Below, piece by piece: positions 5,896 through 58,757 of a stretch of DNA of 64,000 bases. The DNA lies in contig CP085323.1 in the NCBI GenBank assembly GCA_022870745.1, forward strand, positions 2,542,001 to 2,606,000. Direction: 5' to 3'. Under the pieces are notes generated by a model that saw only the letters and a list, made by a program, of their open reading frames with translations, had not been told where the DNA came from and did not search any database. The translations under genes and the position numbers were made by a program. How positions within the stretch are numbered: the first letter of the stretch is position 1; each line of letters opens with the position of its first letter. This stretch comes from Silvibacterium acidisoli. Its GTDB lineage: Bacteria; Acidobacteriota; Terriglobia; Terriglobales; Acidobacteriaceae.

Positions 5896-7577
<1,682 letters not shown>

Positions 7578-7579
7578 AC

Positions 7580-39366: not shown

Positions 39367-40160
39367 CGCAGTTTGCCAAGGCGCATGCCTGTGGGAATGA
39401 TTTTCTGATCGTGGAGGGCAGCTTCGACCGTGAGCTGGCCGTGCGCCTTTGTGAGCGCAATACCGGCGTGGGCGCCGATGGCGTCGAGTTTCTCGGCTGG
39501 ACCGGCGAGCGCGAAGGCGTGATCCGGCTGGCCAATGCCGATGGTTCGATTGCCGAGATCTCGGGCAATGGAACCCGCTGCGTAGCGGCTTGGATCGCCT
39601 ACAGGAAAAAGGCGGTGGCTGGTGACCTGATTCGCCTGGAAACCGACGCCGGCATGCGCGAATGCACTCTCGTGAAAGCGGAGGGCCATCGCTTCCTGTT
39701 CTCGCAGGGCATGGGCGTGCCGCAGGTGCATGATGGCGAGGTCTGCCTGAGCGATGGCAGCGTCATTTCCGGCGTGGTGGTTTCCACAGGGAATCCACAC
39801 TTCGTGATCTTCGTGGAAGACGAAAGCTTCAAAGTCAAAGGGCAGAGCTGGCAGGAGATCGGCAAGGGCATCTGCTTCCACCAGGACTTTCCCGAGCAGA
39901 CGAACGTGGAGTTCGTTCACATCCTCAGCAAGGACGAGATCGAGATTCGCATCTTCGAGCGCGGCGTAGGGCCGACGACATCGTCCGGGACTGGCACCTG
40001 CGCGACCGCCGCGGCAACGATTGCGCGGCGCGGCGCCAGCCCAAGCCTGCTTGTGCGTGCGCCGGGCGGCGAGCAGCGCGTGGAGTGGGCAGGCGAAGGC
40101 ATGGAGATCACGCTGACCGGCCCCGCAGAACTGATCGCCAAGGGTGACGCGTGGTTGTGA
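39363..40160 (+). CDS. dapF: Diaminopimelate epimerase
   Basis: This 265-residue cofactor-independent racemase converts L,L-DAP to meso-DAP for peptidoglycan and lysine. Both catalytic cysteines are present: GNGTRCVAAW (~73-78) and GTGTCATAAATIARR (~215). HACGNDFLIVEG at the N-terminus and VSTGNPHFVIFVED are further signatures. The GTG start lies inside the stop of mgtC (GTGA), a four-base overlap. It works with mpl and ldcA just downstream, all acting on meso-DAP-containing peptides. Confidence 0.95.
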   Translation: MTQFAKAHACGNDFLIVEGSFDRELAVRLCERNTGVGADGVEFLGWTGEREGVIRLANADGSIAEISGNGTRCVAAWIAYRKKAVAGDLIRLETDAGMRECTLVKAEGHRFLFSQGMGVPQVHDGEVCLSDGSVISGVVVSTGNPHFVIFVEDESFKVKGQSWQEIGKGICFHQDFPEQTNVEFVHILSKDEIEIRIFERGVGPTTSSGTGTCATAAATIARRGASPSLLVRAPGGEQRVEWAGEGMEITLTGPAELIAKGDAWL

Positions 40161-41077: not shown

Positions 41078-41084
41078 GGCTAAG

Positions 41085-42509
41085 TTGGAAACGAGAAAGC
41101 ACATACACCTGATCGGCATCTGCGGCACGGCCATGGCCTCGCTCGCAGGGTTGCTGCAGCTCAAAGGGCATCGCATCACCGGGTCGGACCAGGCGGCGTA
41201 TCCGCCCATGTCGGATCTGCTAGCGAGCCTGCAAATTCCCATCGCCGAGCCTTTCGCCGAAAAGAATCTCGATCCACGGCCAGACTTGGTGATCGTGGGC
41301 AATGCCATCTCGCGCGGCAACGTCGAGCTCGAATACGTGCTCGACCAGAAGATTCCATTCACCTCGATGGCGCGTGTGATCCATGATGAGTTTCTGCTCG
41401 GACACGAGTCGCTGGTGGTTTCGGGAACACACGGCAAGACGACGACAACGAGCATGCTGGCGTGGATCTACGAAGTCGCGAGCAGGAAGAATTCCGCGCT
41501 CAAACCATCGTTCCTGATCGGCGGCGTGGCGGAAAACTTCGGTACCAGCTTCCAGGTGCGCGATGGCCGGCCGATGATCCTTGAGGGCGATGAGTATGAC
41601 ACGGCCTTCTTCGACAAAGGTCCGAAGTTCATGCACTACTTTCCTGACGCGCTCATCCTCACGCACGTCGAGTTCGACCATGCAGACATCTATCGCGATC
41701 TCGAAGCGGTGAAGACGGCATTCAAGCGGCTGGCGAACCTGGTGCCGCGCCGTGGGCGCATCGTGGCTTTCGATGGCGCAGCGAATGTGGACGAGTGCGT
41801 GGCAAAGGCCTTCTGCTCTGTCGAGCGCTACGGATTCAAAGCAGATTCGCATTGGCAGGTGAAAGACCTCGCGCATTCGTCGGAGGGAAGCTCGTGGAAG
41901 GTGTTGCGTCAAGGCCAACCCTGGGCGGAGTTCAACATGAAGCTGGCAGGCGCGCACAATGCGATGAACGCCACGGCTGCGGCTGCCCTCGCTGCGGGCC
42001 AGGGTGTGCCGCTCGAAGCAATCGCAGAAGCGCTCAGCAGCTTCCAAAGCGTGAAGCGCCGCCTCGAAGTAAAGGCGGTCATCGATGGCGTTACGATTGT
42101 TGACGATTTCGCGCACCATCCTACGGCGATACGCGAGACGTTGAAGGCGCTGCGCGAGTCCTACCCCTCGTCTCGGCTGTGGGCGGTGCTCGAGCCGCGT
42201 TCGAATACCTTGCGCCGCAACGTCTTCGAGAAGGAACTGGTCGATAGTCTTGCGCTGGCAGATCGCGTGGTGCTGGCTGGCGTCTTCAAGCTGGAAAGTA
42301 TTCCGGTTGCAGAGCGGCTGCATCCCGAAGCGGTTGTGAAGGCGTTGCAGGCAGCAGGTAAACACGCCATGTTGCTTTCGGGCGCGGATGAAATTGTCGC
42401 TGAGATCGCGCCCGAGCTGAGAGAAGGCGATGTGGTCGCCATCCTGTCCAACGGCGGATTCGACGGCATCTACGAAAAGCTGCCGCGACGCCTGCGCGAG
42501 AAGGCCTGA
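41085..42509 (+). CDS. mpl: UDP-MurNAc:L-Ala-gamma-D-Glu-meso-DAP ligase (murein tripeptide ligase)
   Basis: This 474-residue Mur-ligase-family enzyme reattaches recycled tripeptide to UDP-MurNAc. The N-terminal Rossmann domain has HLIGICGTAMASLAGLLQ and the MurC-like GHRITGSDQAAYPPMSDLL. The ATP loop is SGTHGKTTTTSMLAW, and EGDEYDTAFFDKGPKF plus LTHVEFDHADIYRDLEAV distinguish Mpl from MurC. The C-terminal domain has DDFAHHPTAIRETLKALRE and LEPRSNTLRRNVF. The start is a TTG seven bases after ldcA, with AGGG upstream. The final A of its TGA stop is the first base of the plsC ATG. Confidence 0.95.
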   Translation: METRKHIHLIGICGTAMASLAGLLQLKGHRITGSDQAAYPPMSDLLASLQIPIAEPFAEKNLDPRPDLVIVGNAISRGNVELEYVLDQKIPFTSMARVIHDEFLLGHESLVVSGTHGKTTTTSMLAWIYEVASRKNSALKPSFLIGGVAENFGTSFQVRDGRPMILEGDEYDTAFFDKGPKFMHYFPDALILTHVEFDHADIYRDLEAVKTAFKRLANLVPRRGRIVAFDGAANVDECVAKAFCSVERYGFKADSHWQVKDLAHSSEGSSWKVLRQGQPWAEFNMKLAGAHNAMNATAAAALAAGQGVPLEAIAEALSSFQSVKRRLEVKAVIDGVTIVDDFAHHPTAIRETLKALRESYPSSRLWAVLEPRSNTLRRNVFEKELVDSLALADRVVLAGVFKLESIPVAERLHPEAVVKALQAAGKHAMLLSGADEIVAEIAPELREGDVVAILSNGGFDGIYEKLPRRLREKA

Positions 42510-43231
42510 TGTTCTCCGCCTTGACGCTGCTGGTGGTCTACATCGTGCTGGGGATTCCAGCGGCGGTGATTGGCCTGCCGTGGACGCTGCTGAGCCGCAA
42601 CATCACTCTCCTTTACCGCTGGTCGATGTGGATCATGCGCGTGGGGCTGCGCTGCGCCGGCATCCGCGTCGAGGTGCAGTGGAAAGCGCCGCTCGATCCG
42701 GCGCGGCGCTACATCTTTCTTTCTAACCATGTCTCGAACCTCGACCCGCCGGTGCTGATGCCGATGCTGCCCGGCCGGTCTTCGGTCTTCCTGAAGCGTT
42801 CGCTGATGAAGATCCCGGTGCTCGGCTATGGAATGCGGCTCGGCGACTTTATCCCGGTCGATCGCGATGGGCGCGTGGAGAGCGCGCGGGAGAGCGTGCA
42901 GTTCGCGGCGCGCGTGCTCGCCTCAGGCCTGAACGTTTTGTCGTTCGTCGAGGGAACACGTTCACGCGATGGGCGCTTGCAGCCCTTCAAAAAAGGCCCG
43001 TTCTACCTGGCCAAGGAGACTGGAGCACCGGTGGTTCCGGTCTCGATCTGGGGAACGGAGTCGATGATGAAGAAGGGAAGCGTGCGGCTCTATCCGGGAA
43101 CGGCGCACATCGTTTTCCACGCGCCTGTGGAGTCGAGCGATTACGCGACACGCGATGAGCTGCTGGTCGCGGTGCGGCAGGCCATTGCCTCCAGCCTGCC
43201 GGAGTGGATGTTAGAGGAAAAAACTATTTAA
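42509..43231 (+). CDS. plsC: 1-Acyl-sn-glycerol-3-phosphate acyltransferase
   Basis: This 240-residue membrane-associated acyltransferase makes phosphatidic acid from lysophosphatidate. The N-terminal helix is LVVYIVLGIPAAVIGLPWTL. The PlsC signatures are the catalytic SNHVSNLDPPVLMPML (NHx4D), VFLKRSLMKIPVLGYGMRL, the binding motif FVEGTRSRDGRLQPFKKGPF and VPVSIWGTESMM. The ATG shares one base with the mpl stop, so it is the last gene of the overlapping operon. Its 3' end overlaps the convergent SPOR gene by eight bases. PlsC paralogues can act on other acceptors; the specific substrate is inferred from family. Confidence 0.9.
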   Translation: MFSALTLLVVYIVLGIPAAVIGLPWTLLSRNITLLYRWSMWIMRVGLRCAGIRVEVQWKAPLDPARRYIFLSNHVSNLDPPVLMPMLPGRSSVFLKRSLMKIPVLGYGMRLGDFIPVDRDGRVESARESVQFAARVLASGLNVLSFVEGTRSRDGRLQPFKKGPFYLAKETGAPVVPVSIWGTESMMKKGSVRLYPGTAHIVFHAPVESSDYATRDELLVAVRQAIASSLPEWMLEEKTI

Positions 43232-43907
43232 GGATGGCGTTATAGCCGTCGGCGAGCAGCTTGGTACGCATGGCTTTCGCCTCGTCGCGGTTCGCGAACG
43301 GGCCCAGCTGCACGTGCAGAAAGTTGTTGCCCGGCTCGTTCCGCACCGTTGCTGTGTAGCCTTTCTTGCGAAGCGCGCCGACGAGGATATTTGCGTCTTC
43401 CTGGCGCGATACGGCGGCAATCTGAACCATAACCGGTGTTTGCGCGACCGCGGTTGTTACCGAAGCGGCCATGCTTCTTGCGGGTGAAAGCGTTGCGACT
43501 GCGGGGACAGCGCGGGCTGCTGGTGCTGTCTCCAGCACCGGTGTCGGCTTCGGTGCCGGAGCTTCTTCGGAGATCTCGGCGGAAGGCTTGTGCTTCGGTG
43601 CCGGTGCCGCCGGTGTCTCATTGCCTGCGCTCGCGTCGTCCTGATTGGTCTCTTCGACCACGGTGGGTGCGGCTGTTGCCGAAGGCGCGGCGGCTGGCGT
43701 TTTCGTCGTGGCTGATTTCGCAGATTCCGTCGAAGCTGGTGTGCTGCCAGACGCATTGTTGCCGCGTCCCATCGAGAATCCGAAGCCGAAGAAGACGCCG
43801 CAGATGAGCACCAGCCCGAAGAAGATGCCGAGCACGGACTTCATGCCCAGGGTGATTTCTGTATCGGTTCCGATTTCTTCGTCTTCGTCCAGCATCATTC
43901 TTGCCAT
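43224..43907 (-). CDS. SPOR-domain membrane protein
   Basis: This 227-residue protein has a short cytoplasmic start (MARMMLDEDEEIG) and one membrane helix (~22-45, SVLGIFFGLVLICGVFFGFG). A ~95-residue Ala/Pro/Thr-rich periplasmic linker leads to a C-terminal SPOR domain (~155-227: VMVQIAAVSRQEDANILVGA, HVQLGPFANRDEAKAMRTKL). SPOR domains bind denuded glycan strands at the division septum, as in FtsN and DamX, so a division-site role is likely. It lies 11 bases downstream of the slipin gene and probably shares its transcript. The end overlaps plsC by eight bases. Confidence 0.9.
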   Translation of the reverse strand: MARMMLDEDEEIGTDTEITLGMKSVLGIFFGLVLICGVFFGFGFSMGRGNNASGSTPASTESAKSATTKTPAAAPSATAAPTVVEETNQDDASAGNETPAAPAPKHKPSAEISEEAPAPKPTPVLETAPAARAVPAVATLSPARSMAASVTTAVAQTPVMVQIAAVSRQEDANILVGALRKKGYTATVRNEPGNNFLHVQLGPFANRDEAKAMRTKLLADGYNAILK

Positions 43908-43918
43908 GGCAGTAGATC

Positions 43919-44725
43919 CTATTCCCCGGGCTTTTCTGTCGAAGCCGGTTTTTCTGGTGACGCAGGCGAGGGAACAAATCGGTTAATCAGGGAGATCAGC
44001 TCGACGGGCAGCGGGAAGACCACGGTTGTATTTTTTTCCGCACCGATGTCGGTCAGGGTCTGCAGGTAGCGTAGCTGCATGGTCATCGGCTGCTGTGCCA
44101 GCAGGTTGGCGGCTTCCACCAGTCGCTGGGCTGCGGCGTATTCGCCTTCGGCGTTGATGATCTTGGAGCGCTTTTCGCGCTCGGCTTCGGCCTGCTTGGC
44201 CATGGCGCGCAGCATCTGCTCGGGCAGATCCACCTGCTTCACTTCGACGCTTACGACCTTTACGCCCCATGGTTCGGTGCGCTGATCGATGATGGACTGG
44301 ATGCGCTGGTTGAGCTGGTCGCGGTGCGAAAGCAGGCCGTCCAGTTCCACCTCACCCAGGACCGAACGCAGCGTGGTCTGCGCAAACTGCGAAGTCTGGT
44401 AGACGTAGTTCGATACCTCGATCACGGCGCGGGCCGGGTCGAGAACACGCAAGGTGATGACGGCATTGACCTTGATGGTGACGTTGTCGCGCGTGATCAC
44501 GTCCTGCGGCGGTACTTCGAGCACTTCCTGGCGCAGCGAGATGCGCACCATCTGGTCGAGCGGACGAAAGACCAGGATCAATCCCGGACCCTTGGGCGGC
44601 AGATGCGCGCGGCCCAGCCGGAAGATAACACCGCGCTCGTACTCGCGCAGAATCTTGATGGAATTCAGCAGGTAGAGAACGACGGCGACAAGAAGAATGA
44701 GGCTGGGAATACCGATCATTTTCAC
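43919..44725 (-). CDS. Slipin/stomatin-like SPFH-domain protein
   Basis: This 268-residue protein has an N-terminal hydrophobic anchor ([20 protein letters not shown]) followed by the SPFH/Band 7 domain. Motifs are [40 protein letters not shown], the [20 protein letters not shown] strand region and [19 protein letters not shown]. The coiled-coil [20 protein letters not shown] and [18 protein letters not shown] complete the slipin pattern. Slipins oligomerise into membrane microdomain cages. Bacterial slipin genes typically sit next to NfeD long-form proteases, exactly as here (45-base gap), which points to joint membrane-protein quality control. Confidence 0.94.
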
Positions 44726-47728: not shown

Positions 47729-49297
47729 TCACGGAGCCATCAGCTTCGCTTCCTGCGGGCGATTGAAATGCAGCACCGCTACCCACTGGCCTTTCTTTGC
47801 TGCACGCCATTCCACGTCGCCGTCCAGCAGGCGGGCGACCGCTTCCGGCGCAAGGTCGTGATGAAAGTCGAAAAAGCGCCGGTCGAAGGCTTCGTTTCTC
47901 TGGCCCAGGCTGAAGGGCAGGTGCGGCGGGTCGTACTTGGTGGAGAAAATCAACGCGACAGTGTAGGGCTCAGGGCTCTGGGCTGCTTTCTGTATCTGTT
48001 CGAAGGTGAAGTTGTCGATCGCGACAACCGGAACGGCGCTCGACACATAGCCAAGCTCCGGCTTGGTCAGCTCGTCGCTCACCGGCCACGCCGTCAGCAC
48101 GGTCGCATGCGGATAGTGCTCAAGAACCTGCGCGATGGCCGACTGGTGCAGGCGAATAACATCCGCATAGGCGAGGTTATCTTCCGGAGCGAATCGGTAG
48201 GGCGGATTCACAAGGAGTCCGGTGACAAAAGCCACCGCGCTCAGTCCGGCCAGTAACACCCAGGATTGAAAACGCCTGTAAAAAGTGTGCACGCAAAACA
48301 GGATTACCAGCGGATAAAGCGGCAGCAGGTAGCGGGTAAGCAGCGCGCCGCCGAGAACAGAAAAGGCAGCGAGATTCACCAGCAGAACGACACCGAAGAT
48401 GGCCAGCGTGGAAGCCGGGAACGCCGCGCGCGGTTTGCCATAGGGATCTTCGACGACGGGCAGTATGGCGCAGGCCGCCGCCAGCAGCGTCAGCACAAAA
48501 AGATTCATGTGCGCGGTGACGTGCAGCAGGCGATGCCCGAAGGCCAGCAGAATGCGCAGCGGAGTGAGCGTCGCCGTGGCGTTGTAGCGCAGGTACTCCG
48601 GGTTGCCGAAGACGAAGCCGGTATGGACCTTGTGATACAGGTACCAGCAGGCGAGCGGCACTACAGGCAGAAGCAGCAGCGTGCCCCGGCGAATGTTCTT
48701 TGACAGGCGCAGGCCGCGCGCGATCTCCCAGAGCGCGATGGCAATCGGCGTGACGATCGAAGTCTCTTTCGCCAGCGCCGCGAGCGAGAAGCAGAGAACA
48801 GCCCACCAAATTCCCGCAGTGGTCAACTCCAGAAAGAAGACCAGCGCCCAGAGCGTCGCTGCGGCTGCGAAGAGATCGGCGTGGGCAAGCGAGCTCTGCG
48901 CAAAGAAGATGGGATAAATGGCGGTAAGCAACACGCTGGCCCACGCTACCGATGCTCTTCCCGCAGTAAGGCGGCCAAGTGTCCAGACCGCGGTCAGTGC
49001 GAGTGCCGCAACGCCACACATCGCGATGCGTGTGACGACTGGAGCAAAGCCGAAGAGCTTCCATGCGGCCGCGAGACAGATGGAAGGCAGCGGTGGATGG
49101 GCGTTCGAAAGCGTGCTCCAGGGAATAAGCGAGCCATTGCGGAAAAAATCGAAGGCGGCGGGGATGTAGTAGCCGGCCTCGTCCCAGTAATAGGGCAGGT
49201 GCAGCAGCGGCCAGTGCGCAAGGGTGACGGCTGCCCAGAGGGCCAGCAGCGTCAACGCAAATCGCCGGAAAGAAAGCGTGAAAGATGGACCGGACAC
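47729..49297 (-). CDS. GT-C family membrane glycosyltransferase (ArnT/PMT-like)
   Basis: This 522-residue protein has an N-terminal helix and the GT39/GT83 signature in the first periplasmic loop (LPYYWDEAGYYIPAAFDFF, catalytic Asp), followed by SNAHPPLPSICLAAAWKLFG, the HPP loop. About nine more hydrophobic helices follow (e.g. ASVLLTAIYPIFFAQSSLAH; ALAKETSIVTPIAIALWEIA). The C-terminal ~180 residues form a periplasmic domain with FAPEDNLAYADVIRLHQSAI. Donors are normally polyprenyl-phosphate sugars and acceptors lipid A, protein or glycan; neither is readable here. It lies 22 bases upstream of the TPR gene on the same strand and may lead that transcript. Confidence 0.88.
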   Translation of the reverse strand: MSGPSFTLSFRRFALTLLALWAAVTLAHWPLLHLPYYWDEAGYYIPAAFDFFRNGSLIPWSTLSNAHPPLPSICLAAAWKLFGFAPVVTRIAMCGVAALALTAVWTLGRLTAGRASVAWASVLLTAIYPIFFAQSSLAHADLFAAAATLWALVFFLELTTAGIWWAVLCFSLAALAKETSIVTPIAIALWEIARGLRLSKNIRRGTLLLLPVVPLACWYLYHKVHTGFVFGNPEYLRYNATATLTPLRILLAFGHRLLHVTAHMNLFVLTLLAAACAILPVVEDPYGKPRAAFPASTLAIFGVVLLVNLAAFSVLGGALLTRYLLPLYPLVILFCVHTFYRRFQSWVLLAGLSAVAFVTGLLVNPPYRFAPEDNLAYADVIRLHQSAIAQVLEHYPHATVLTAWPVSDELTKPELGYVSSAVPVVAIDNFTFEQIQKAAQSPEPYTVALIFSTKYDPPHLPFSLGQRNEAFDRRFFDFHHDLAPEAVARLLDGDVEWRAAKKGQWVAVLHFNRPQEAKLMAP

Positions 49298-49378
49298 GGG
49301 TCAGTGTATCAAGCCGAAGAGCGGGGCCAAGAATGGCTCCGGTCAGGCATTCCCCGGATCAATTATCTTAGAAACGAC

Positions 49379-50434
49379 ATGTGGCGCGGCTTCCAGATGC
49401 TGTTCAATGACGAAACGGGGAACACCCGCCGCAAGGTCGTGGGCATTTACGCGCTGCTGATGGCCTTCAACGCCGGTGCATGGCTCTGGGCTGTCGTCGC
49501 CTTTCATCGTTTCCCCGTCATGCTGGGCACGGCCCTGCTGGCATACAGCCTTGGGCTGCGCCACGCGGTCGATGCCGATCACATTGCCGCCATCGACAAT
49601 GTCACCCGCAAGCTCATGCAGGAGGGCAAGCGCCCCATTGGGGTGGGGCTGATGTTCTCGCTGGGTCATTCGACCGTGGTCGTGCTCGGTTCCGCCGGGT
49701 TGGCCAGCGCGGCGTTTCTGCTGCAGCATCGCATGGATGGCCTGCGGCATATCGGCGGACTGGTCGGCACACTCGTCTCGGCCTTCTTCCTGCTGGCAAT
49801 GGCGGTGGTCAACCTGGTGGTCCTGCGCTCGGTCTATCGGACGTTCGTACGCGTGCGAGCGGGCGCTCCCTATGTGGATGAGGATCTCGACCTGCTGCTT
49901 TCGGGACGCGGATTCCTCTCGCGGATCTTCCGGCCGGTCTTTCGCATGATCCGCTCCAGCTGGCACATGTATCCGCTTGGCTTTCTCTTCGGCCTTGGCT
50001 TCGATACCGCGACGGAGATCGGCCTGCTCGGCATCTCGGCTTTGGAAGCCTCGAAGGGAATGCCTATCTGGTCTGTGCTGGTTTTTCCGGCGCTCTTTAC
50101 CGCGGGCATGTCTCTGGTCGATACGACCGACAACATCCTGATGCTCGGAGCCTATGGCTGGGCCTTCGTGAAGCCGATCCGCAAGCTCTACTACAACATG
50201 ACGATCACGGCCGTCTCGGTGGTGGTGGCGCTGGTCGTCGGCGGCATCGAAGCGCTCGGGCTGGTCGGGGACCAGCTGCACCTGCGCGGTCTCTTCTGGG
50301 AGACCATCGGCAAGCTCAACGACCACTTCGGCGTACTCGGTTACTTCATCATCGCTTTGTTCGCGCTCAGCTGGATCATCTCCATCGCCATCTACAAATG
50401 GCGGCGCTTTGACGATATGGAAGTAGGCGCATAG
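49379..50434 (+). CDS. NiCoT-family nickel/cobalt permease
   Basis: This ~351-residue permease has eight predicted helices. The diagnostic helix II metal motif is LGLRHAVDADHIAAIDNVTR (HAVDADHI). Other family signatures are MFSLGHSTVVVLG, GFLFGLGFDTATEIGLLGIS and AGMSLVDTTDNILMLGAYGW. NiCoT proteins import Ni2+ and/or Co2+ for urease, hydrogenase or cobalamin enzymes; none of those genes adjoin it, so metal preference is open. The frame is open far upstream through sequence antisense to the glycosyltransferase, but MWRGFQMLFNDETGNTRRKV is the plausible start. An internal ATG at codon 7 is an alternative. Confidence 0.92.
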   Translation: MWRGFQMLFNDETGNTRRKVVGIYALLMAFNAGAWLWAVVAFHRFPVMLGTALLAYSLGLRHAVDADHIAAIDNVTRKLMQEGKRPIGVGLMFSLGHSTVVVLGSAGLASAAFLLQHRMDGLRHIGGLVGTLVSAFFLLAMAVVNLVVLRSVYRTFVRVRAGAPYVDEDLDLLLSGRGFLSRIFRPVFRMIRSSWHMYPLGFLFGLGFDTATEIGLLGISALEASKGMPIWSVLVFPALFTAGMSLVDTTDNILMLGAYGWAFVKPIRKLYYNMTITAVSVVVALVVGGIEALGLVGDQLHLRGLFWETIGKLNDHFGVLGYFIIALFALSWIISIAIYKWRRFDDMEVGA

Positions 50435-50469
50435 TTCTGCCAACCACTCAAAACCAATAGAATGGATCT

Positions 50470-51501
50470 ATGAAGGCTCTAGTAAAGGCACACGCGCGGG
50501 AAGGGCTCTGGCTCGAAGACATTCCGGAACCGGTGATCGGCATCAACGATGTCCTGATTAAGGTCCGATACACCGGGATCTGTGGAACCGATGTTCATAT
50601 CTACCAGTGGGACGACTGGGCAAAGAGCACCATCCCGGTCCCCATGGCGATCGGCCACGAGTTTGTAGGCGAGATTGCCGAAATCGGCTCGAATGTGACC
50701 GACTTCAAGGTGGGCGATATCGTCAGCGGTGAAGGCCACACAACCTGCGGACGCTGCCGAAACTGTCTCGCCGGCCGCCGCCATCTCTGTGCCTTCACCA
50801 AGGGCGTCGGAGTAAACCGTCCTGGCTGCTTTGCCGAATACATCTCCATTCCAATGAGCAACGTGTGGCGCCACCATCCGGGAGTGGACCAGGAAGTCGC
50901 CGCGATCTTCGATCCCTTCGGCAACGCGGTGCACACGGCGCTGTCGTTTCCGGTGAATGGTGAAGACGTGCTCATCACCGGTGCAGGCCCGATTGGCATC
51001 ATGTGCATTCCGGTTGTGAAGTACGCGGGCGCGCGCCACGTGGTGATCACCGATCCCAACCCCTACCGCCGCGAACTCGCAAAGAAGATGGGCGCGACGC
51101 TGGCCGTGAATCCGATGGAGACGTCGCTGGCAGACGTGCAGAAGGAACTCGGCATGGTCGAGGGCTTCGATGTTGGCCTCGAAATGTCTGGCAACGCAGC
51201 CGCAATGCGCGACATGATCGCCAACATGTGCCACGGCGGCAAGATCGCCATCCTTGGCATTCCTGCGAAGGAGATGCAGACAGACTGGCGCCCGGTGATC
51301 TTCAACATGCTCACCATCAAGGGCATCTACGGCCGCGAGATGTTCGAGACCTGGTACAAGATGAGCGTGATGGTGGAGTCGGGCGTAGATATCTCGCCGA
51401 TCATCACCCATCGCTTCAGCTACAAGGACTGGCAGAAGGGCTTCGACGCCATGATGTCGCAGGAAAGCGGCAAGGTCGTTCTCGACTGGACGAAGATTTA
51501 G
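50470..51501 (+). CDS. tdh: L-Threonine 3-dehydrogenase
   Basis: This 343-residue zinc-dependent medium-chain dehydrogenase oxidises L-threonine to 2-amino-3-oxobutyrate. Catalytic zinc ligands are in [14 protein letters not shown] and [14 protein letters not shown]; the structural zinc Cys cluster is [15 protein letters not shown]. The NAD Rossmann motif is [40 protein letters not shown] and [14 protein letters not shown] are TDH-typical. It lies nine bases before kbl, and the kbl ribosome-binding site AGGAG overlaps the tdh stop codon. The pair converts threonine to glycine plus acetyl-CoA. Confidence 0.96.
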
Positions 51502-51509
51502 GAGATCGC

Positions 51510-52691
51510 ATGTACGGACGCTTCCAGCAGCACGCAGCCGACAAGCTGAAAGAGATCGCCGCAGCCGGGCTACGCAAGGACGAGCGCGTCATCGAAGGAC
51601 CGCAGCAGGCGGAGATCGAAGTCGCAGGCGGCAAGACGCTTAATCTTTGCGCGAATAACTATCTCGGTCTCGCGAATCATCCCGAGATTGTGAAGGCCGC
51701 GCAGTGGGCTCTCGACGAATGGGGCTATGGACTCGCCAGCGTGCGCTTCATCTGCGGCACGCAGGCGATTCACAAAGAGCTTGAGGCTAAGATCAGCAAG
51801 TTCCTCGGCACCGAGGACACGATCCTTTACGGCTCCTGCTTCGACGCGAACGGCGGTCTCTTCGAGACGCTGCTTGAGGCCGAAGATGCCGTCATCTCCG
51901 ATGAATTGAACCACGCCAGCATCATCGACGGCGTTCGCCTCTGCAAGGCCAGCCGCTTCCGCTACAAGAACGGCGACATGGCCGACCTTGAAGCAAAGCT
52001 GAAAGAAGCAGCCGGCGCACGTTTTCGCCTGATCGCGACCGATGGCGTCTTCTCGATGGATGGCTACATCGCAAGGCTCGATAAGATCTGCGATCTGGCC
52101 GAGAAGTACGACGCGATGGTGATGGTCGACGACTCGCACGCGGTGGGCTTTGTCGGCACGCACGGACGCGGCACGCCCGAGTATTGCGGCGTCGAAGGCC
52201 GCATCGACATCATCACCGGCACGCTGGGTAAGGCGCTGGGCGGCGCCAGCGGCGGCTACACCAGCGGACGCAAGGAGATCATCGATCTTCTCCGTCAGCG
52301 CTCGCGGCCCTATCTGTTTTCGAACTCGCTGGCGCCGACCATCGCAGCGGCCTCGATGAAGGTCCTGGAGCTCGTCGCCGAGTCGAACGAGTTGCGCGAC
52401 ACACTGCGTGCCAACACGCAGTACTTCCGCGAAGCCATGACCGCCAACGGCTTCAACATCCTGCCCGGCGAGCATCCCATCGTCCCGGTCATGCTGGGCG
52501 ACGCGCAGCTTGCCGTGAAGATGGCGCAGATCCTGCTCGGCAAGGGAATCTACGTGATCCCGTTCTCGTTCCCGGTTGTGCCGCACGGCAAGGCGCGCAT
52601 TCGCACGCAGATCTCCGCGGCGCATACGCGCGAGGAGCTGGAGTTTGCGGTCAAGGCCTTCGCGGAAGCGAAGACCGAGATGGGAATCTAG
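51510..52691 (+). CDS. kbl: 2-Amino-3-ketobutyrate CoA ligase (glycine C-acetyltransferase)
   Basis: This 393-residue PLP enzyme of the alpha-oxoamine synthase family cleaves 2-amino-3-oxobutyrate with CoA to glycine and acetyl-CoA. Family features are [40 protein letters not shown], the PLP-binding [20 protein letters not shown] and the Schiff-base lysine in [18 protein letters not shown]. The C-terminal [20 protein letters not shown] follows. The ATG at 51510, seven bases after GGAG, gives the standard length; a longer opening reaches back into tdh in another frame and is not used. It is co-transcribed with tdh. Confidence 0.96.
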
Positions 52692-52723
52692 CCTAATCCA
52701 AGGGTTGTGATCCCCTCTTAGAA

Positions 52724-52805
52724 TTGTCATCCCGAACGCAGTGAGGGATCTGCACTTTTCGCCCGAGAGGCAAAAGCAGATCCCTCACTGCGTTCGGGAT
52801 GACAA
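52724..52805. repeat. 82-nt inverted-repeat element between convergent genes
   Basis: Arms of 30 bases (52724-52753 and 52776-52805) are exact inverted copies around a 22-base loop, which itself contains a weaker TTTTCGCC/GGCAAAA stem. The arm contains TCATCCCGAACGCAGTGAGG, a motif type known as an abundant intergenic repeat in many acidobacterial and other genomes (family knowledge; no second copy is in this window). No transposase is present. Lying between the ends of kbl and the transporter gene, it could also terminate both transcripts. Confidence 0.8.
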
Positions 52806-52830
52806 CTTTGAAGCTATAGCCAGGCACGGG

Positions 52831-54102
52831 CTAAGACTGAGCGGCAGCGACTTCCTTCACCTTGTAGCCGCTCATCGCGAAGTACAGCACCACGGCATAG
52901 CAGACCATAGGCACCAGAAAAGCCATGCGGATGTTGGTCGCATCGGAGATGAGCCCCATCAGCGGTGGAAAGATCGCGCCGCCGATGATCGACATCACCA
53001 GCAGCGAAGCGCCGCGCTTGGTGAAAGGGCCAAGGTGGCGGATGCTGAGGGCGAAGATCGTGGGGAACATGATCGAATGGAAGAAGCCCAGCAGCACAAT
53101 GCCGATCAGCGCGATCTCCCCATGCGCAAACAGCACCAGCGCACCTGAGCCGAGACAGCCTATCGCGAAAGACATCAACATCGACGGCGGCTGGATGCGC
53201 TTCATCAGCGCCGCGCCGCCGAAGCGGCCGATCATGAACGCGATCAGGTGCGCCTTGAGATAGTTCGCCGCATGCGCATCGCTCGTGCCCGGATAGGTGT
53301 GCTCGACGAAGCGAATCACAAAACTCGCCACACCCACCTGCGCTCCGATGTAAAAGAACTGCGCCATTACTCCCTTGAGCAGGTGCGGAAAAGCGCGCAC
53401 GCCGGGAAAGCTGGCCGCGTCGCCTTCGAGTTTGCCTTCCTCCGTCTTCTCTTCTGAAATGACAGGCAGTTTGGCTTTTAAGATGAGCAGCGCCATCGCC
53501 ACGAAGACGGCCACGATCACCATGTATGGCCCGCGCACCACGTCCGCGGATTCGCCCTGCGCGCGTACCCGCGACAGAATGAAGATCGATCCGATAAACG
53601 GCGTGACCACCGCGCCGACCGCGTTGAACGATTGCGCGACGACCAGCCTCTGCTCAGAAGATTGCGCTGGTCCAAGAAAAGTGACGTAAGGGTTCGCCGA
53701 GACCTCGAGGAACGACTGTCCGCAGGCCATGATGAACAGCCCGGTGAGGAAGATCCAGTAGAGATGCACGGTGGCCGCGGGGATAAAAAGAAAAGCTCCG
53801 GCAGCGCAGATCAGCAGGCCGCAGACGATGCCGCGCTGGTAGCCGATCTTCTCCATGAGCCTGCCCGCCGGCCAGGCGGCGAGAAAGTATCCGCCAAAAA
53901 ACGCAAGCTGCACGAAGGACGATTCGAAGTCGGTGAGGCGAAAGGCACGCTTGAGGTGCGGAATCAGGACATCATTCAGGTTGACGCCGATGGCCCACAG
54001 AAAAAACAGGCTGACGATCAGGCAAAAGGGAACGAGGTACTGGCGGTTGGTGAGTGGTCCGCCGCTCTGTTGCGAGCCGGATGAAACGCGCGCGATTTCC
54101 AT
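52831..54102 (-). CDS. FucP-type major facilitator sugar transporter
   Basis: This 423-residue MFS permease has 12 predicted helices. FucP/glucose-galactose-porter signatures are present: FFLWAIGVNLNDVLIPHLKR in helix 1, FESSFVQLAFFGGYFLAAWP with AGRLMEKIGYQRG, GQSFLEVSANPYVTFLG and VAQSFNAVGAVVTPFIGSIF. The second half starts MAQFFYIGAQVGVASFVIRF and includes FHSIMFPTIFALSIRHLGPF. Members co-transport protons with L-fucose, glucose, galactose or N-acetylglucosamine; the substrate here is uncertain. It lies 57 bases after the D-serine dehydratase-like gene on the same strand, so an operon with amino-acid rather than sugar catabolism is possible. Confidence 0.88.
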   Translation of the reverse strand: MEIARVSSGSQQSGGPLTNRQYLVPFCLIVSLFFLWAIGVNLNDVLIPHLKRAFRLTDFESSFVQLAFFGGYFLAAWPAGRLMEKIGYQRGIVCGLLICAAGAFLFIPAATVHLYWIFLTGLFIMACGQSFLEVSANPYVTFLGPAQSSEQRLVVAQSFNAVGAVVTPFIGSIFILSRVRAQGESADVVRGPYMVIVAVFVAMALLILKAKLPVISEEKTEEGKLEGDAASFPGVRAFPHLLKGVMAQFFYIGAQVGVASFVIRFVEHTYPGTSDAHAANYLKAHLIAFMIGRFGGAALMKRIQPPSMLMSFAIGCLGSGALVLFAHGEIALIGIVLLGFFHSIMFPTIFALSIRHLGPFTKRGASLLVMSIIGGAIFPPLMGLISDATNIRMAFLVPMVCYAVVLYFAMSGYKVKEVAAAQS

Positions 54103-54159
54103 CGAGAGAAACGATCTCCGCTGAGTAAAACTGTTTTGGCGCCTCGGACAGAATACTCT

Positions 54160-55404
54160 TTAGAAGAAGGTCTGCATCAGGTCCACGATCTGGTAGCTGT
54201 CATCCACCACCGCCAGCCACCGCCATTTGTCGAAGGTGAGGCAGGGGTGGGAGATATCGAAGGCCAGCATGTCGCCCACGCGCAGGCCGTCGCCCGCGGT
54301 GATCTTCATAAAGGCGTGCTGGTCCATCATCTTGGTCACTTCCCATTGTGAAGACGCAGGCTGCGGCGCAGCGCTGCCCGGGCGATAGTGCAACGCGGGA
54401 AGCGGCAGTCCGGCATCGAAGGCCGCATCGCGCTTGCCCATGGCGATGATCGCTTTTTCTGGTTCGGGAATCGACTGCACATAGGCCCAGATCTGCAATG
54501 CCGGCTTCAGGCTGGAGTGCATCTTTTTCGCTATGGGATTGCGCTCCAGAATCTTCTGCTGGCTGGTCTTGTAGACGCCGACATCATGCGTCAGGTAGCA
54601 GCCGGGACGGAGAACGATTTCCGCTTTGTCACGAAGATCCACCGCAGAAAATTCCTCGGCCACAATGTCATACCAGGCAGAACCAGCCCCGGTCAGGATG
54701 GGGCGTTCGCGATCAAAGAGTTTTTTTGCAAGGAGATCGTTTGTAACCGTCACGGCGCGCTGGCAATAAGCGCGGACGGCATCGTCGCTGTCAAGCAGGC
54801 CTTCGTAAATCTCCACGCCGCACAATGCGATGCTGTCCTTGTGCGCGGCAATGGCGTCGAGGACGGCCTGCGCCTGCTCCTCGTTGCGAACACCCGTCCG
54901 GCCGCCTTCGACCCCCAGCTCCAGCAGGACATTTAAACGAAGCTTGCGCTCTCCAAAGAACGCTGCAAGCTGCTCGACCAGAATGGGAGAGTCGACGAGG
55001 CAGAAGAACTCAAATTCAGGGTCGGCAAGCAGGCGGGCAATCAGTGCCATGTTCTGTTTGCCGACTAGCTGGTTCGCCAGCAGTACGCGGCGCACACCGT
55101 GCTCGTAGGCGACCGCCGTCTGCTGTGCGGTCGCAAGCGTAATGCCCCATGCCCCTGTCCTGAGCTGCAGCCTGAAGAGCGCCGGCGTCATGGTCGTCTT
55201 GCCATGGGGCGCCAGCTGCACGCCGTAGGCAGCGATAAATTGCTGCATCCAGGCTGCATTGTGCAGCAGATTCGCCTGAGAAAGCACCGCCGCCGGCAGG
55301 TTCAGGTCTTCGCGGAGCAGGTTCCAGCTGAGAGCTTTCACATCGCTGGCGCTGGCCGGGGACGCGAACTTTGCAAGTGCTTTTTCAAGGGAGCTGATTG
55401 GCAT
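54160..55404 (-). CDS. D-serine dehydratase-like PLP/zinc enzyme (DSD1 family)
   Basis: This 414-residue fold-type III PLP enzyme has an N-terminal alanine-racemase-like barrel with the Schiff-base lysine in QLAPHGKTTMTPALFRLQ, then RRVLLANQLVG, VLLELGVEGGRTGV and GAGSAWYDIVAEEF. The C-terminal D-ser_dehydrat domain (~290-410) carries the HxC zinc pair of eukaryotic DSD enzymes as His386-Pro-Cys388 in DISHPCLTFDKW. Relatives deaminate D-serine, D-threonine or D-threo-3-hydroxyaspartate to an oxoacid and ammonia via an enamine. It is divergent from a D-aminoacylase-RidA-GntP operon, which supports a D-amino-acid role. The exact substrate is not determined. Confidence 0.86.
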   Translation of the reverse strand: MPISSLEKALAKFASPASASDVKALSWNLLREDLNLPAAVLSQANLLHNAAWMQQFIAAYGVQLAPHGKTTMTPALFRLQLRTGAWGITLATAQQTAVAYEHGVRRVLLANQLVGKQNMALIARLLADPEFEFFCLVDSPILVEQLAAFFGERKLRLNVLLELGVEGGRTGVRNEEQAQAVLDAIAAHKDSIALCGVEIYEGLLDSDDAVRAYCQRAVTVTNDLLAKKLFDRERPILTGAGSAWYDIVAEEFSAVDLRDKAEIVLRPGCYLTHDVGVYKTSQQKILERNPIAKKMHSSLKPALQIWAYVQSIPEPEKAIIAMGKRDAAFDAGLPLPALHYRPGSAAPQPASSQWEVTKMMDQHAFMKITAGDGLRVGDMLAFDISHPCLTFDKWRWLAVVDDSYQIVDLMQTFF

Positions 55405-55512
55405 GAAAGGACAGCTTTCCTGCGCTTGTAGCGCACACAGCCACTATACCGAATCGCGAGGCCACGCCTCGACGCCGGCCGAGGGCGCGTTTATTGTGGA
55501 AGAAAGAAAAAT
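55405..55512. promoter_or_regulatory. Divergent promoter region of the D-amino-acid module
   Basis: This 108-base spacer contains ACTATA at 55443-55448, which on the minus strand reads TATAGT (5/6 match to -10) about 40 bases before the dehydratase-like gene. It also contains a hairpin CGAGGC-CAC-GCCTCG (55457-55471). The deacylase ribosome-binding site GGAAGAAAG is at the right end. Shared control of both arms by one regulator is plausible, but no regulator gene lies nearby. Confidence 0.45.
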
Positions 55513-56970
55513 ATGTCCTCCTGCGACACAATTCTTCGCAATGTCCGATTGATTGACGGAAGCGGCGCCGAGCCGGAAGAGGCCGATGTCGCCATTGTTG
55601 GCGACCGCATTCATTCCATCGGGCGACTGCACGATCTTGCTGCGAAGAATGTCATCGACGGCAAAGGGCTCGCGCTCGCTCCCGGCTTTATCGATGTCCA
55701 CACGCACGACGACACGAACGTGATCCGCACACCGCAGATGCTGCCCAAGCTCTCGCAGGGCGTCACCACGGTGATCGTGGGCAACTGCGGCATCAGTGCT
55801 TCGCCGGTTACGCTTGCGGGCGATCCGCCCGACCCCATGAACCTGCTCGGCAAGGCGGAAGATTTTCACTACCCGGCTTTCGCGGATTACGTAGCGGCCA
55901 TCGCCGAAGCGAAGCCGTCGGTAAACGTCGCCGCGCTCATCGGGCACACGGCGTTGCGCAACAATCACATGGATCGCCTCGATCGCGTGGCGACTCCGGA
56001 AGAAATCGCCGCCATGCGAGCGCAGTTGCAGGAAGCCCTCGACCATGGAGCGCTCGGGCTCAGCTCCGGCCTGGCCTATCTGTCAGCGATATCGGCAACG
56101 ACCGAAGAAGTCATCGAGCTGGCGCGCCCGCTGGCCGCATCCGGCGCCATCTACACGACGCACATGCGCACCGAGACAGAAGCCATTCTTGACGCCATGC
56201 GCGAGGCCTTTCGCATCGGCAACGAGTCGAGCGTTCCGGTGGTGATCTCGCACCTCAAGTGTGCAGGCATCGACAACTGGGGACGCAGCGGCGAGGTGCT
56301 GGCGCTGCTCGAGTCGGCCCGCGAATCGCAATCGGTGAACTGCGATTGTTATCCCTACGCCGCCGGATCGAGCACGCTCGACCTGCGCCAGATCGACGAG
56401 CGCGTCGAGGTCATGGTGACATGGAGCGTGCCGCATCCCGAGATGGCCGGGCGCACCGTCGCCGACATCGCCAATGCATGGGGCGTCGAACAGCTCGAGG
56501 CCGCGCGACGGCTGCAGCCCGCCGGCGCGATCTATCACAGCATCTCCGAAGAGGACATGCGCCGCATCCTGCAGCACGAGGCGACGATGATCGGGTCGGA
56601 CGGACTGCCGAACGATCCGCTGCCGCATCCGCGTCTGTGGGGAACCTTCCCGCGCGTGCTCGGCCGTTACAGCCGCGAGCTGAAGTTGTTTCCGCTGGCC
56701 ACGGCAGTGCACAAGATGACGGGCCTGCCCGCGCGCCGCTTCGGCATCGCACAGCGAGGCCTGCTGCGTGAAGGATATTTCGCAGACATGGTGCTCTTCG
56801 ATCCTGCCCAGATCGAAGACATGGCTACATTTACCGAGCCGGTCCAGCGGGCACGCGGCATCGCCGGCGTCTGGGTCAACGGAGTGTTGTCGTACAAAGG
56901 TACAGAGCCGACAGGGCAACGCGGCGGAAGATTCCTGCCAAGGCAGAAGATGGAGAGCGTACAGCAATGA
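55513..56970 (+). CDS. N-acyl-D-amino-acid deacylase (D-aminoacylase)
   Basis: This 485-residue amidohydrolase begins with a small beta domain (CDTILRNVRLIDGSGAEPEE). The metal-binding barrel has LAPGFIDVHTHDDTNVIRTP, the Cys ligand characteristic of D-aminoacylases in TVIVGNCGISASPV, and ALGLSSGLAYL. His ligands lie in TTHMRTETEAIL and VVISHLKCAGIDNWGR, and the catalytic Asp in IGSDGLPNDPLPHPRLWGTF. The C-terminus restores the beta domain (GIAGVWVNGVLSYKGTEP). It hydrolyses N-acyl-D-amino acids to a free D-amino acid and carboxylate. The signal peptide is absent, so it is cytosolic. It overlaps ridA by four bases (ATGA). Confidence 0.93.
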   Translation: MSSCDTILRNVRLIDGSGAEPEEADVAIVGDRIHSIGRLHDLAAKNVIDGKGLALAPGFIDVHTHDDTNVIRTPQMLPKLSQGVTTVIVGNCGISASPVTLAGDPPDPMNLLGKAEDFHYPAFADYVAAIAEAKPSVNVAALIGHTALRNNHMDRLDRVATPEEIAAMRAQLQEALDHGALGLSSGLAYLSAISATTEEVIELARPLAASGAIYTTHMRTETEAILDAMREAFRIGNESSVPVVISHLKCAGIDNWGRSGEVLALLESARESQSVNCDCYPYAAGSSTLDLRQIDERVEVMVTWSVPHPEMAGRTVADIANAWGVEQLEAARRLQPAGAIYHSISEEDMRRILQHEATMIGSDGLPNDPLPHPRLWGTFPRVLGRYSRELKLFPLATAVHKMTGLPARRFGIAQRGLLREGYFADMVLFDPAQIEDMATFTEPVQRARGIAGVWVNGVLSYKGTEPTGQRGGRFLPRQKMESVQQ

Positions 56971-57362
56971 GCATCAAGCGTTATGGAGTCGAAGGCGGCA
57001 AGGGAACCGGCGGGCAGCACCTGCCCTTTGCGCGTGCTGTGGAAGCCGACGGATGGCTTTACGTCTCGGGACAGGTCGCCATGGTCAAGGGCGAAGTCGT
57101 CGAGGGCAACATAGTCACGCAGTCTCACCAGGCGATCAAGAACCTGCTCGCCATCCTCGAAGAAGCCGGTTACGGAACCGAGCACGTTGTCCGCTGCGGG
57201 GTCTGGCTCGACGACCCGCGCGACTTCCAGTCCTTCAACGGAGTCTTCAAGCAGTACTTCGGCGAGAATCCCCCTGCGCGTGCCTGCGTGGTTTCGAGTA
57301 TGGTGGTGGATTGCAAGGTAGAGATCGACTGCGTCGCTTATAAAGCTCCGAAAGCCTCCTAG
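56967..57362 (+). CDS. RidA-family enamine/imine deaminase
   Basis: This 131-residue YjgF/YER057c/UK114 fold protein has HLPFARAVEADGWLYVSGQV at the N-terminus and HQAIKNLLAILEEAGYGTEH in the middle. It ends NPPARACVVSSMVVDCKVEI, whose arginine (residue ~111, PARACV) matches the catalytic Arg105 of RidA. RidA proteins hydrolyse 2-aminoacrylate and related imines released by PLP dehydratases, preventing enzyme damage. Here it overlaps the D-aminoacylase gene by four bases and sits opposite the D-serine dehydratase-like gene. Both suit a detoxifying role in D-amino-acid breakdown. Confidence 0.93.
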   Translation: MSIKRYGVEGGKGTGGQHLPFARAVEADGWLYVSGQVAMVKGEVVEGNIVTQSHQAIKNLLAILEEAGYGTEHVVRCGVWLDDPRDFQSFNGVFKQYFGENPPARACVVSSMVVDCKVEIDCVAYKAPKAS

Positions 57363-57410
57363 TCGCTACGTCCAGATAACAACTTCACAGGAATCGGTGG
57401 ATCAGCGTAG

Positions 57411-58757
57411 ATGATCGATCATCACAGCATTTTTCTGCTCGCCGCAGCGGCCGCCTCGGTGGTAGCGCTGATTGCGCTGATTGCCGTCTTCAAGCTCAAC
57501 CCCTTTATCACGCTGCTGCTCTGCTCGCTCGGCCTTGCCATCGCCACGGACATGCCCATGTCGATGATCGTCAAGTCCTTCGAGACCGGCGTGGGCGGAA
57601 CGCTCGGCCACATCGCCATCGTGGTTGGCCTGGGCACGATGCTGGGCAAGATGATGGCCGAGTCCGGAGGCGCTGACCGCATTGCGCTCACGCTGATTCG
57701 CATCGCGGGCGAAAAGCACCTGCCCTGGGCGATGGTCGCCATTGGATTTCTAGTGGGCCTGCCCGTCTTCTTTGAGGTGGGCTTCGTTCTACTCGTTCCC
57801 ATCGCGTTTACGGTGGCGCGGCGGACGAACTCGTCGCTCATCCGTGTCGGCCTGCCCATGGTTGCCGGGCTTTCCGTGGTGCATGGCCTGATGCCGCCGC
57901 ATCCCGCTGCCATGCTGGCGGTGACTACCTACGGAGCGGACGTGGGCCGGACGATCTTCTACGGCCTGATCGTCGGCATTCCCGCCGCGATCCTCGCCGG
58001 CCCGCTCTTTACGAAGATTATCGAGCCGCATGTTCATCTGCCCGCAGAGAACCCCATCGCCGAGCAGTTCACGGATCGCGAAGAGCGGCAGGACATGCCG
58101 GGGTTCTGGGTTGTCGTGATGACCATCCTGCTGCCCGTGTTCCTGATGCTGATCGGCAGCTGGGCCGATGCGCTGACAACTCCCAGGACGCCTCTGAATA
58201 ACGTCCTGCACCTGCTCGGCAATGCGGATATTTCGCTCGCCGTCGGAGTCTTGGTCAGCTTCGTCGTTCTCGGCAAGATGCGCGGCTTTTCGAAGGAGCA
58301 GATTCTCCGCTTCTCGAATGAGTGTCTCGCGCCCACTGCCTCGATTACATTGCTGGTTGGCGCTGGCGGAGGCTTTGGCCGCATCCTGCAGGACAGTGGC
58401 GTCTCACAGGCGATTGTCAGCTACTCGGTGAATGCGCATGTACCGCTGCTGGTGCTGGCATGGCTGGCGGCTGCGATGATCCGGCTGGCAACGGGCTCGG
58501 CTACGGTCGCCATGACGACCGCCGCTGGCATCGTCGCTCCGATCGCAGCCCACACCGCGGGCGCGCGGCCCGAGCTGCTGGCCCTGGCAACCGGAGCCGG
58601 CTCGCTGGTCTTTTCTCACGTCAATGATGGAGGCTTCTGGCTCGTCAAGGAGTACTTCAACATGAGCGTGCCGGAGACCATGAAAACCTGGTCGATTCTC
58701 GAGACCATTATTTCGGTCGCAGGACTGCTGTTTACGCTCGGGCTATCGCTCGCCTAA
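57411..58757 (+). CDS. GntP-family permease (possible D-amino-acid or gluconate transporter)
   Basis: This 448-residue, ~12-helix transporter belongs to the GntP/DsdX family. Motifs are FKLNPFITLLLCSLGLAIA, SFETGVGGTLGHIAIVVGLG with TMLGKMMAESGGADRIALTL, GLPVFFEVGFVLLVPIAFTV, GLPMVAGLSVVHGLMPPHPA and VFSHVNDGGFWLVKEYF. Members import gluconate, D-serine (DsdX), D-glycerate or related hydroxy acids. The operon neighbours (D-aminoacylase, RidA) favour a D-amino acid or N-acyl derivative here, but this is inference. It starts 48 bases after ridA with GGTGGA upstream, and overlaps the convergent heme A synthase gene by four bases. Confidence 0.9.
   Translation: MIDHHSIFLLAAAAASVVALIALIAVFKLNPFITLLLCSLGLAIATDMPMSMIVKSFETGVGGTLGHIAIVVGLGTMLGKMMAESGGADRIALTLIRIAGEKHLPWAMVAIGFLVGLPVFFEVGFVLLVPIAFTVARRTNSSLIRVGLPMVAGLSVVHGLMPPHPAAMLAVTTYGADVGRTIFYGLIVGIPAAILAGPLFTKIIEPHVHLPAENPIAEQFTDREERQDMPGFWVVVMTILLPVFLMLIGSWADALTTPRTPLNNVLHLLGNADISLAVGVLVSFVVLGKMRGFSKEQILRFSNECLAPTASITLLVGAGGGFGRILQDSGVSQAIVSYSVNAHVPLLVLAWLAAAMIRLATGSATVAMTTAAGIVAPIAAHTAGARPELLALATGAGSLVFSHVNDGGFWLVKEYFNMSVPETMKTWSILETIISVAGLLFTLGLSLA

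Follow-up and report, generated by a model that had tools for sequence, protein, structure and literature searches.

Positions 52831-58757 of a 64,000-nucleotide stretch of the Silvibacterium acidisoli genome (GenBank GCA_022870745.1, contig CP085323.1, positions 2,542,001 to 2,606,000; hereafter the window) carry a divergent group of genes that very probably includes the cytoplasmic core of the Ong (oxidised N-acetylglucosamine) pathway, acting on N-acetyl-D-glucosaminate (GlcNAc1A), the C1-oxidised chitin monomer, and not on D-amino acids. This reading is based on homology, clade membership, specificity residues, conserved gene order and the chitin-gene context of relatives' loci. From these we infer all substrates and activities in this organism, as well as the chitin origin of the sugar acid.

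On the forward strand, an ongB-like gene (55513-56970, 485 amino acids (aa), Amidohydro_3), predicted to encode a GlcNAc1A deacetylase of the subtype V amidohydrolases, is followed by ridA (ongD-like; 56967-57362, 131 aa, PF01042, Ribonuc_L-PSP/RidA), a predicted enamine/imine hydrolase acting after OngC, and by a gntP-family permease gene (57411-58757, 448 aa, GntP_permease), whose product is the predicted GlcNAc1A importer replacing the SSS transporter OngIT. On the reverse strand lies an ongC-like gene (54160-55404, 414 aa, PF14031 plus Ala_racemase_N) for a predicted D-glucosaminate (GlcN1A) deaminase/dehydratase. The arms are separated by a 108-base intergenic region (55405-55512), in which the promoters of both are expected. 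A first-pass annotation of the same DNA had described what looked like a complete pathway for N-acyl-D-amino acids that also took in a FucP-type permease. Its gene positions, the 108-base gap between the divergent starts and the four-base overlap of the ongB stop with the ridA start (56967-56970) were all borne out, and the five open reading frames are open and belong to the families that it had named. The genome carrying the module is a single contig of 5,359,900 bases.

Results

Among 299 genomes of the class (S. acidisoli included), an OngC-like protein (E <= 1e-20) was found in 21 and a high-scoring OngB (at least 667.8 bits; next match 244) in 18, and in all 18, the S. acidisoli genome among them, ongC adjoins ongB. 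The first-pass annotation had proposed a conservation check of the divergent pair; run within the class, it recovered the pair in 17/17 other genomes with a high-scoring OngB, a recurrence that makes the arrangement more than chance. A gntP gene lies beside the core in each of these 17 relatives, and within the genus OngB was present in 7 of 9 genomes and in 4/4 of the more complete ones. A second set comprised the best 80 of at least 584 confirmed loci from named genomes and therefore leans to near relatives; by record titles it holds 19 Acidobacteriota (one, L091, titled only "bacterium"), 34 Betaproteobacteria, 26 Pseudomonas and one Armatimonadota. Where both genes were found, ongC and ongB are on opposite strands in 64 of 67 loci, a count that includes a few genomes twice, since they belong to the class set as well as to the named set.

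The deacylase, previously labelled a D-aminoacylase, is most likely OngB, a predicted deacetylase of GlcNAc1A. Its matches to solved chains were 643 bits for 9g5m, 545 for PpOngB (9kb1) and 494 for the Alcaligenes D-aminoacylase AfDam (1m7j), and it is 52.6% identical to the OngB of Pseudoalteromonas sp. CF6-2. The metal site Cys97/His222/His252 and the catalytic Asp368 (PpOngB numbering) are kept; this numbering matched the residues named in PMC12017989 at 18/18 examined positions. Positions 97, 193, 222, 252, 256, 291, 292, 298, 348 and 368 read CAHHASSQGD in PpOngB, CAHHASSQSD in the window and CFHHMSTRMD in AfDam, so that the window protein agrees with PpOngB at nine of the ten. According to PMC12017989, the C3 and C5 hydroxyls of GlcNAc1A are bound by Ser292 and Gln298, which correspond to residues 287 and 293 of the window protein, and PpOngB is active on GlcNAc1A only, accepting none of the tested N-acetyl-D-amino acids. 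Gln298 was found in 17/17 class relatives and 80/80 named loci, and Ser292 in 16/17 and 79/80, the class counts leaving out L068, a distant 35% homologue. The hydrophobic pocket of the AfDam type (Phe191, Met254, Leu298, Met346) together with Thr at 292 was not found in the window OngB; opposite Gln298 our sequence alignment places an AfDam Arg, whereas the structural pairing given in PMC12017989 is AfDam Leu298.

For comparison, 14 further loci were fetched, of which 11 were of the D-aminoacylase type and three (L178, L179, L180) fell on the OngB side. AfDam and its 11 plasmid-borne homologues have Thr292 in 12/12 and Gln298 in 0/12; among the other three, the Klebsiella and Gemmatirosa proteins have Ser/Gln at 292/298, and L178, from Pantoea, has Thr and Arg there and attaches immediately outside the OngB fork. 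In a 59-row maximum-likelihood tree, in which L068, L042, L177 and L182 sit on long branches and are of unsure placement, the window, PpOngB and Klebsiella proteins share a 43-row OngB-side fork (support 97/95) and the 12 D-aminoacylases form a fork of their own (98/94). Tree and residues Ser292/Gln298 thus place the deacylase with the GlcNAc1A deacetylases and speak against its D-aminoacylase identity; they also favour GlcNAc1A over D-amino acids from peptidoglycan, which had been suggested as the natural substrate, probably wrongly.

The 9g5m sequence is identical over 376 residues to Klebsiella pneumoniae locus L076, which is annotated with an ongC homologue, RidA, an SSS transporter, 2-dehydro-3-deoxygalactonokinase, an aldolase and an RpiR regulator. 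We found no report of the activity of 9g5m in the literature searched, including by the PDB codes 9G5M and 9GV8. In L076 itself (CP125156.1) the ongB at 7292-8718 is unannotated and matches in three pieces, apparently broken, whereas ongB is open in K. pneumoniae record L179. The distant locus L068 (6742-9643) holds an OngC (57% identical to that of the window) in tandem with the divergent 35% amidohydrolase, whose pocket Met193/Val256/Asn291/Ser292/Gln298 indicates a possible substrate change.

The first-pass "D-serine dehydratase" groups with OngC, and its predicted reaction is probably the conversion of glucosaminate to 2-keto-3-deoxygluconate (KDG). It was rightly set apart from the bacterial DsdA enzyme, since it carries PF14031 and Ala_racemase_N only, without the DsdA-type (fold-type II) domain; the H-P-C motif is also present, at residues 386-388. 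By family it is a fold-type III enzyme dependent on pyridoxal 5'-phosphate (PLP), with an HxC metal site. The PLP lysine is residue 69, and this Lys as well as the His and Cys of the zinc pair are invariant across a 44-row alignment of the window protein and its relatives. Against the solved structure 3gwq the protein scored 548 bits, and against a D-threonine aldolase 67; it is 47.7% identical to the OngC of Pseudoalteromonas CF6-2. In the 44-row tree it falls in a 39-row clade (100/99) with the Pseudoalteromonas CF6-2 and Klebsiella OngC, although the bootstrap was not fully settled and these two rows are on long branches; the OngC-like proteins of L072, L073, L077, L173 and L175 lie outside. 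3gwq, deposited as a D-serine deaminase, is about 61% identical to the window protein, lies inside the same clade and is 78% identical to the OngC of Burkholderia singularis (L139), which is encoded beside ongB. The neighbourhood of such near relatives suggests glucosaminate as its substrate.

The window RidA is 65.9% identical to OngD of Pseudoalteromonas CF6-2, and knockouts of ongB, ongC, ongD and kdgK are reported to show that each gene is required for growth on GlcNAc1A (PMC9537276). The GntP protein passed the TIGR00791 gluconate:H+ symporter model (469.5 bits, cut-off 292.75), stayed below the cut-off of the gluconate transporter PRK14984 (403.6 bits) and did not reach that of the NCBIfam DsdX model (316.4 bits, cut-off 618). 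The suggestion that it is DsdX-like was therefore rejected. As GlcNAc1A is gluconate carrying an acetamido group, its import by a permease of the gluconate type would be reasonable. GntP is further linked to the substrate of OngB by the Pseudomonas loci, 23 of 26 of which keep GntP, RpiR and OngB together although the stretches fetched show neither OngC nor RidA. A homologue of the marine SSS importer was detected neither in the 80 named loci nor in those of the 17 class relatives. From these comparisons, import by GntP and a role for RidA downstream of OngC are predicted in this organism. In one Pseudomonas locus, L144, a Glyoxalase_7 (PF19581) gene directly follows ongB, and a different glucosaminate deaminase may act in the Pseudomonas loci.

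The context of the core in relatives includes chitin genes. In class genome G290 a chitinase/hexosaminidase island encloses the core (about 44.2-48.9 kb), which is flanked on one side by genes for a GH20 enzyme (38236-40380), a GH18 protein (40611-42761) and a lactonase with a twin-arginine translocation (TAT) signal (42973-44199), and on the other by GH20 (49032-51248), GH18 (51491-52828) and, on the other strand, a 905-aa protein with a GH18 match (52968-55685). Both GH20 matches and three of the four GH18 matches of this 4.13-Mb genome fall within about 17 kb. In the named locus L109 a GH20 gene comes after ongC. Of 30 loci, 8 have a lactonase gene after gntP (5/17 class relatives and 3/13 named Acidobacteriota, the latter being 13 of the 19 named Acidobacteriota loci; L055 and L092 of the 30 are near-identical). 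Two of the eight lactonases were scanned; both are PF10282 and one has a TAT signal. Since a lactone is the first product of C1 oxidation, the presence of a lactonase agrees with a sugar acid as substrate but not with a D-amino acid. In the genome of S. acidisoli itself, GH18 gave 7 matches and GH20 gave 5; near 2.47 Mb, one GH18 and one GH20 match lie about 0.8 kb from each other.

For the fate of KDG, the genome offers a KdgK-like gene at about 834,276-835,370 and then a gene for 2-keto-3-deoxy-6-phosphogluconate (KDPG) aldolase at 835,387-836,028, above the TIGR01182 cut-off, both after an IclR-like regulator gene. A PfkB gene in the window (36073-37008) was considered as the missing KdgK and rejected, as the gene just before it is presumably nucleoside-phosphorylase-like and a tblastn search with KdgK (E 1e-5) did not hit it. 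The 34 betaproteobacterial loci include Andreprevotia, Jeongeupia, Silvimonas, Amantichitinum and Collimonas, which are chitin degraders, and encode RpiR (34), RidA (34), OngC (33), GntP (31), PfkB-type KdgK (27) and KdgA (17); judged by family, these loci supply predicted pathway functions without a counterpart in the window cluster.

Among 27 intergenic regions, a palindrome, TATAGNCTATA, was found 26-27 bases before the ongB match in seven (L058, L059, L062, L063, L066, L093 and L095), and in eight when one mismatch was allowed, against a chance expectation of 0.03 (mean of 200 shuffles, which ignore relatedness). It is possibly an operator or promoter element in those relatives. As an operator of the window module it was rejected, being absent from the window intergenic region.

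The remaining gene, for the FucP-type major facilitator superfamily permease (52831-54102, reverse strand, 423 aa; TIGR00885 343.7 bits, above cut-off), begins 57 bases downstream of ongC. Its inclusion in the module was rejected: it was found next to ongC in the S. acidisoli genome only, with no homologue in the loci of the 17 class relatives or the 80 named loci (in L062 and some short contigs the sequence stops at or close to the core, which makes them uninformative on this point), and its own relatives sit with deoxyhexose-type catabolic genes. The nearest outside its own genome are 68, 58 and 56% identical (G281, G310 and G317, the last with one stop) and have FAH-hydrolase, enolase-superfamily, SDR, amidohydrolase and mutarotase genes as neighbours, a set that we take to resemble non-phosphorylative L-fucose or L-rhamnose breakdown. 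FucP is thus probably a bystander outside the conserved unit, although given the 57-base gap it may be co-transcribed with ongC here. L072 (7668-10469), which comes from a different family of the same class, has an OngC-like gene (46%) next to a distantly FucP-like one (39%); OngB is absent from this stretch. On the other side of FucP, tdh (L-threonine 3-dehydrogenase) and kbl (glycine C-acetyltransferase), at 50470-52691, adjoin the module convergently and represent ordinary threonine breakdown. The convergent kbl/FucP gap (52726-52803) contains a perfect 27-base inverted repeat, with two copies in the window and none expected by chance.

Discussion

On the proposed Ong pathway, the sugar acid would come from chitin oxidised by other organisms. 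GntP would import GlcNAc1A (2-acetamido-2-deoxy-D-gluconate), an analogue of gluconate that is set free from chito-oligosaccharides oxidised at C1, and OngB (55513-56970) would deacetylate it by a zinc/Asp mechanism to D-glucosaminate. GlcN1A would then be deaminated to KDG by OngC (54160-55404), which uses PLP and has a metal site, with RidA (OngD) hydrolysing the enamine/imine intermediate, and the KDG-kinase-like enzyme and KDPG aldolase encoded at about 834.3-836.0 kb would lead to pyruvate and glyceraldehyde-3-phosphate. The pathway shape of the first-pass annotation, in which uptake, N-deacylation, a PLP dehydratase/deaminase and RidA form one conserved module, is retained; what probably has to be given up is its substrate, the N-acyl-D-amino acids.

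Several observations weigh against this assignment. Position 348 is Ser in the window and Gly in PpOngB, and OngC is reported to deaminate D-Ser and D-Thr in addition to converting glucosaminate to KDG and ammonia (PMC9537276). Three of the 21 class genomes with an OngC-like protein (G010, G151 and G289) have no high-scoring OngB, and RidA, present in 14 of the 17 class relatives, is missing in L061, L065 and L067. In all 26 Pseudomonas loci (among L138-L169) the DNA fetched around OngB holds neither OngC nor RidA, so the OngB-OngC pair is not universal. No homologue of the RpiR regulator OngR, the GH20 enzyme OngA, the importer OngIT or the kinase KdgK, all four of which a marine ong cluster has, was found in the 64-kb window (tblastn, E 1e-5), and the KdgK-like kinase elsewhere in the genome scored below the curated cut-offs of the KDG-kinase models that it matched. 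The chitin context is also uneven: GH20, by homology to OngA, is rare at the core (1/17 class relatives, 1/19 Acidobacteriota and 1/34 betaproteobacterial loci), and GH18 was matched in 17 of the 18 ong genomes and not in G103. Because GH20 occurs in 70 and KDPG aldolase in 57 of the 90 genomes of the family, their mere presence proves little, and as evidence by itself it was rejected.

To the same side of the balance belongs the search for AA10 lytic polysaccharide monooxygenases (LPMOs), which found none in the S. acidisoli genome (0/1), the ong genomes (0/18) or the class genomes (0/299); the control, run on 14 genomes, gave a match in Lactococcus lactis. With no AA10 LPMO detected, either other organisms or a different oxidation would have to supply GlcNAc1A. 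We favour scavenging, since chitin-active LPMOs are secreted by fungi and by other bacteria. These bacteria therefore probably use oxidised chitin that others have produced, or else oxidise N-acetylglucosamine (GlcNAc) by another route. A specific form of the latter, in which Acidobacteriota would use a periplasmic GlcNAc or chito-oligosaccharide dehydrogenase to form a lactone, which the lactonase encoded beside gntP in several relatives would open for the ong core, seems unlikely to us. If true, it would constitute a non-phosphorylative route for a chitin sugar in Acidobacteriota that needs no LPMO.

Two other substrates have to be weighed. The first is the one originally proposed, N-acyl-D-amino acids from peptidoglycan, with a true D-aminoacylase, dehydration of D-Ser and D-Thr, clearance of 2-aminoacrylate by RidA and a DsdX-like GntP. 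The D-aminoacylase fold (494 bits to 1m7j), the sub-threshold match of GntP to DsdX (316 bits) and the D-Ser and D-Thr activity of the marine OngC (PMC9537276) are all compatible with it. We nevertheless regard it as very improbable, because the residue signature and the tree put the deacylase with the GlcNAc1A deacetylases, PpOngB is reported to have had no detectable activity on N-acetyl-D-amino acids (PMC12017989), and the gluconate-symporter model outscores DsdX. Moreover, KdgK, KdgA and a lactonase are encoded in relatives' loci, and so, at a few loci, are chitinases or hexosaminidases, whereas a D-amino-acid dehydrogenase lies nearby in two of the ten annotated AfDam-like loci (L177 and L182). 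In favour of D-amino-acid catabolism, a related module in Comamonadaceae combines an OngC-like enzyme, a Thr292-type deacylase and ABC transporters (of the oligopeptide/dipeptide type in L175), as this reading would predict. Comamonadaceae plasmids L173, L174 and L175 carry RpiR and a Thr292-type deacylase, and L173 and L175 also an OngC-like enzyme and ABC transporters; this sister module may handle N-acyl-D-amino acids.

The second is another aldonate, for example N-acetyl-galactosaminate or N-acetyl-mannosaminate, or a mixed use in which GlcNAc1A is one of several substrates. Variation at position 348 (G, C, S, N or A across the 80 named loci), the reported breadth of OngC (PMC9537276) and the Pseudoalteromonas origin of all three OngB enzymes whose assays are described (PMC12017989) leave some room for it. 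It too appears highly unlikely given the conservation of Ser292 and Gln298, the residues reported to contact the C3 and C5 hydroxyls of GlcNAc1A, and the chitin-type genes that flank the core in G290 and L109.

Catabolism of oxidised chitin is known mainly from marine, and some terrestrial, LPMO-bearing Gammaproteobacteria (PMC9537276), and two Aeromonas strains are described as being without clear OngB or OngC (PMC11653859). No report of the Ong pathway in Acidobacteriota was found in the literature searched, most subscription papers being outside its scope. The novelty of the window module would thus lie in a known pathway in another phylum, with another importer and no LPMO detected. Acidobacteriota are common in soil, and an ong core there would imply feeding on the oxidation products of others or another source of GlcNAc1A.

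The best-known counterpart is the ong cluster of Pseudoalteromonas prydzensis ACAM 620 (PMC9537276; DNA read in strain CF6-2, L075). As in the window, homologues of OngB, OngC and OngD stand in one locus, and the predicted chemistry of the window module likewise ends at KDG, with a KdgK-like gene in the genome. In contrast to the marine cluster, the window belongs to Acidobacteriota and not Gammaproteobacteria, has GntP in place of the SSS transporter OngIT, and has its ongC and ongB arms divergent; it also lacks OngR, OngA, OngIT and KdgK homologues, and its genome has no detected AA10 LPMO. Of the solved deacylases, PpOngB (9kb1) and Klebsiella 9g5m share with the window OngB the metal ligands, the catalytic Asp, Ser292/Gln298 and the side of the tree, with position 348 being Ser in the window, Gly in PpOngB and Asn in 9g5m. 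AfDam shares the fold, the Cys/His/His metal site and the catalytic Asp, but has Phe, Met, Thr and Met where the window has Ala, Ala, Ser and Ser (193, 256, 292 and 348), and sits in a separate fork of the tree. Closer in layout are the Cupriavidus clusters (L074, L116 and others), which have the same divergent ongC/ongB arms with ridA and gntP, and which, unlike the window, include an RpiR regulator, a PfkB-type KdgK and KdgA in the cluster. Finally, the deposited name of 3gwq implies a D-serine substrate, yet the protein stands among OngC proteins encoded beside OngB. This comparison suggests that many soil genes named "D-aminoacylase" or "D-serine deaminase", perhaps including that of 3gwq, encode amino-sugar-acid enzymes.

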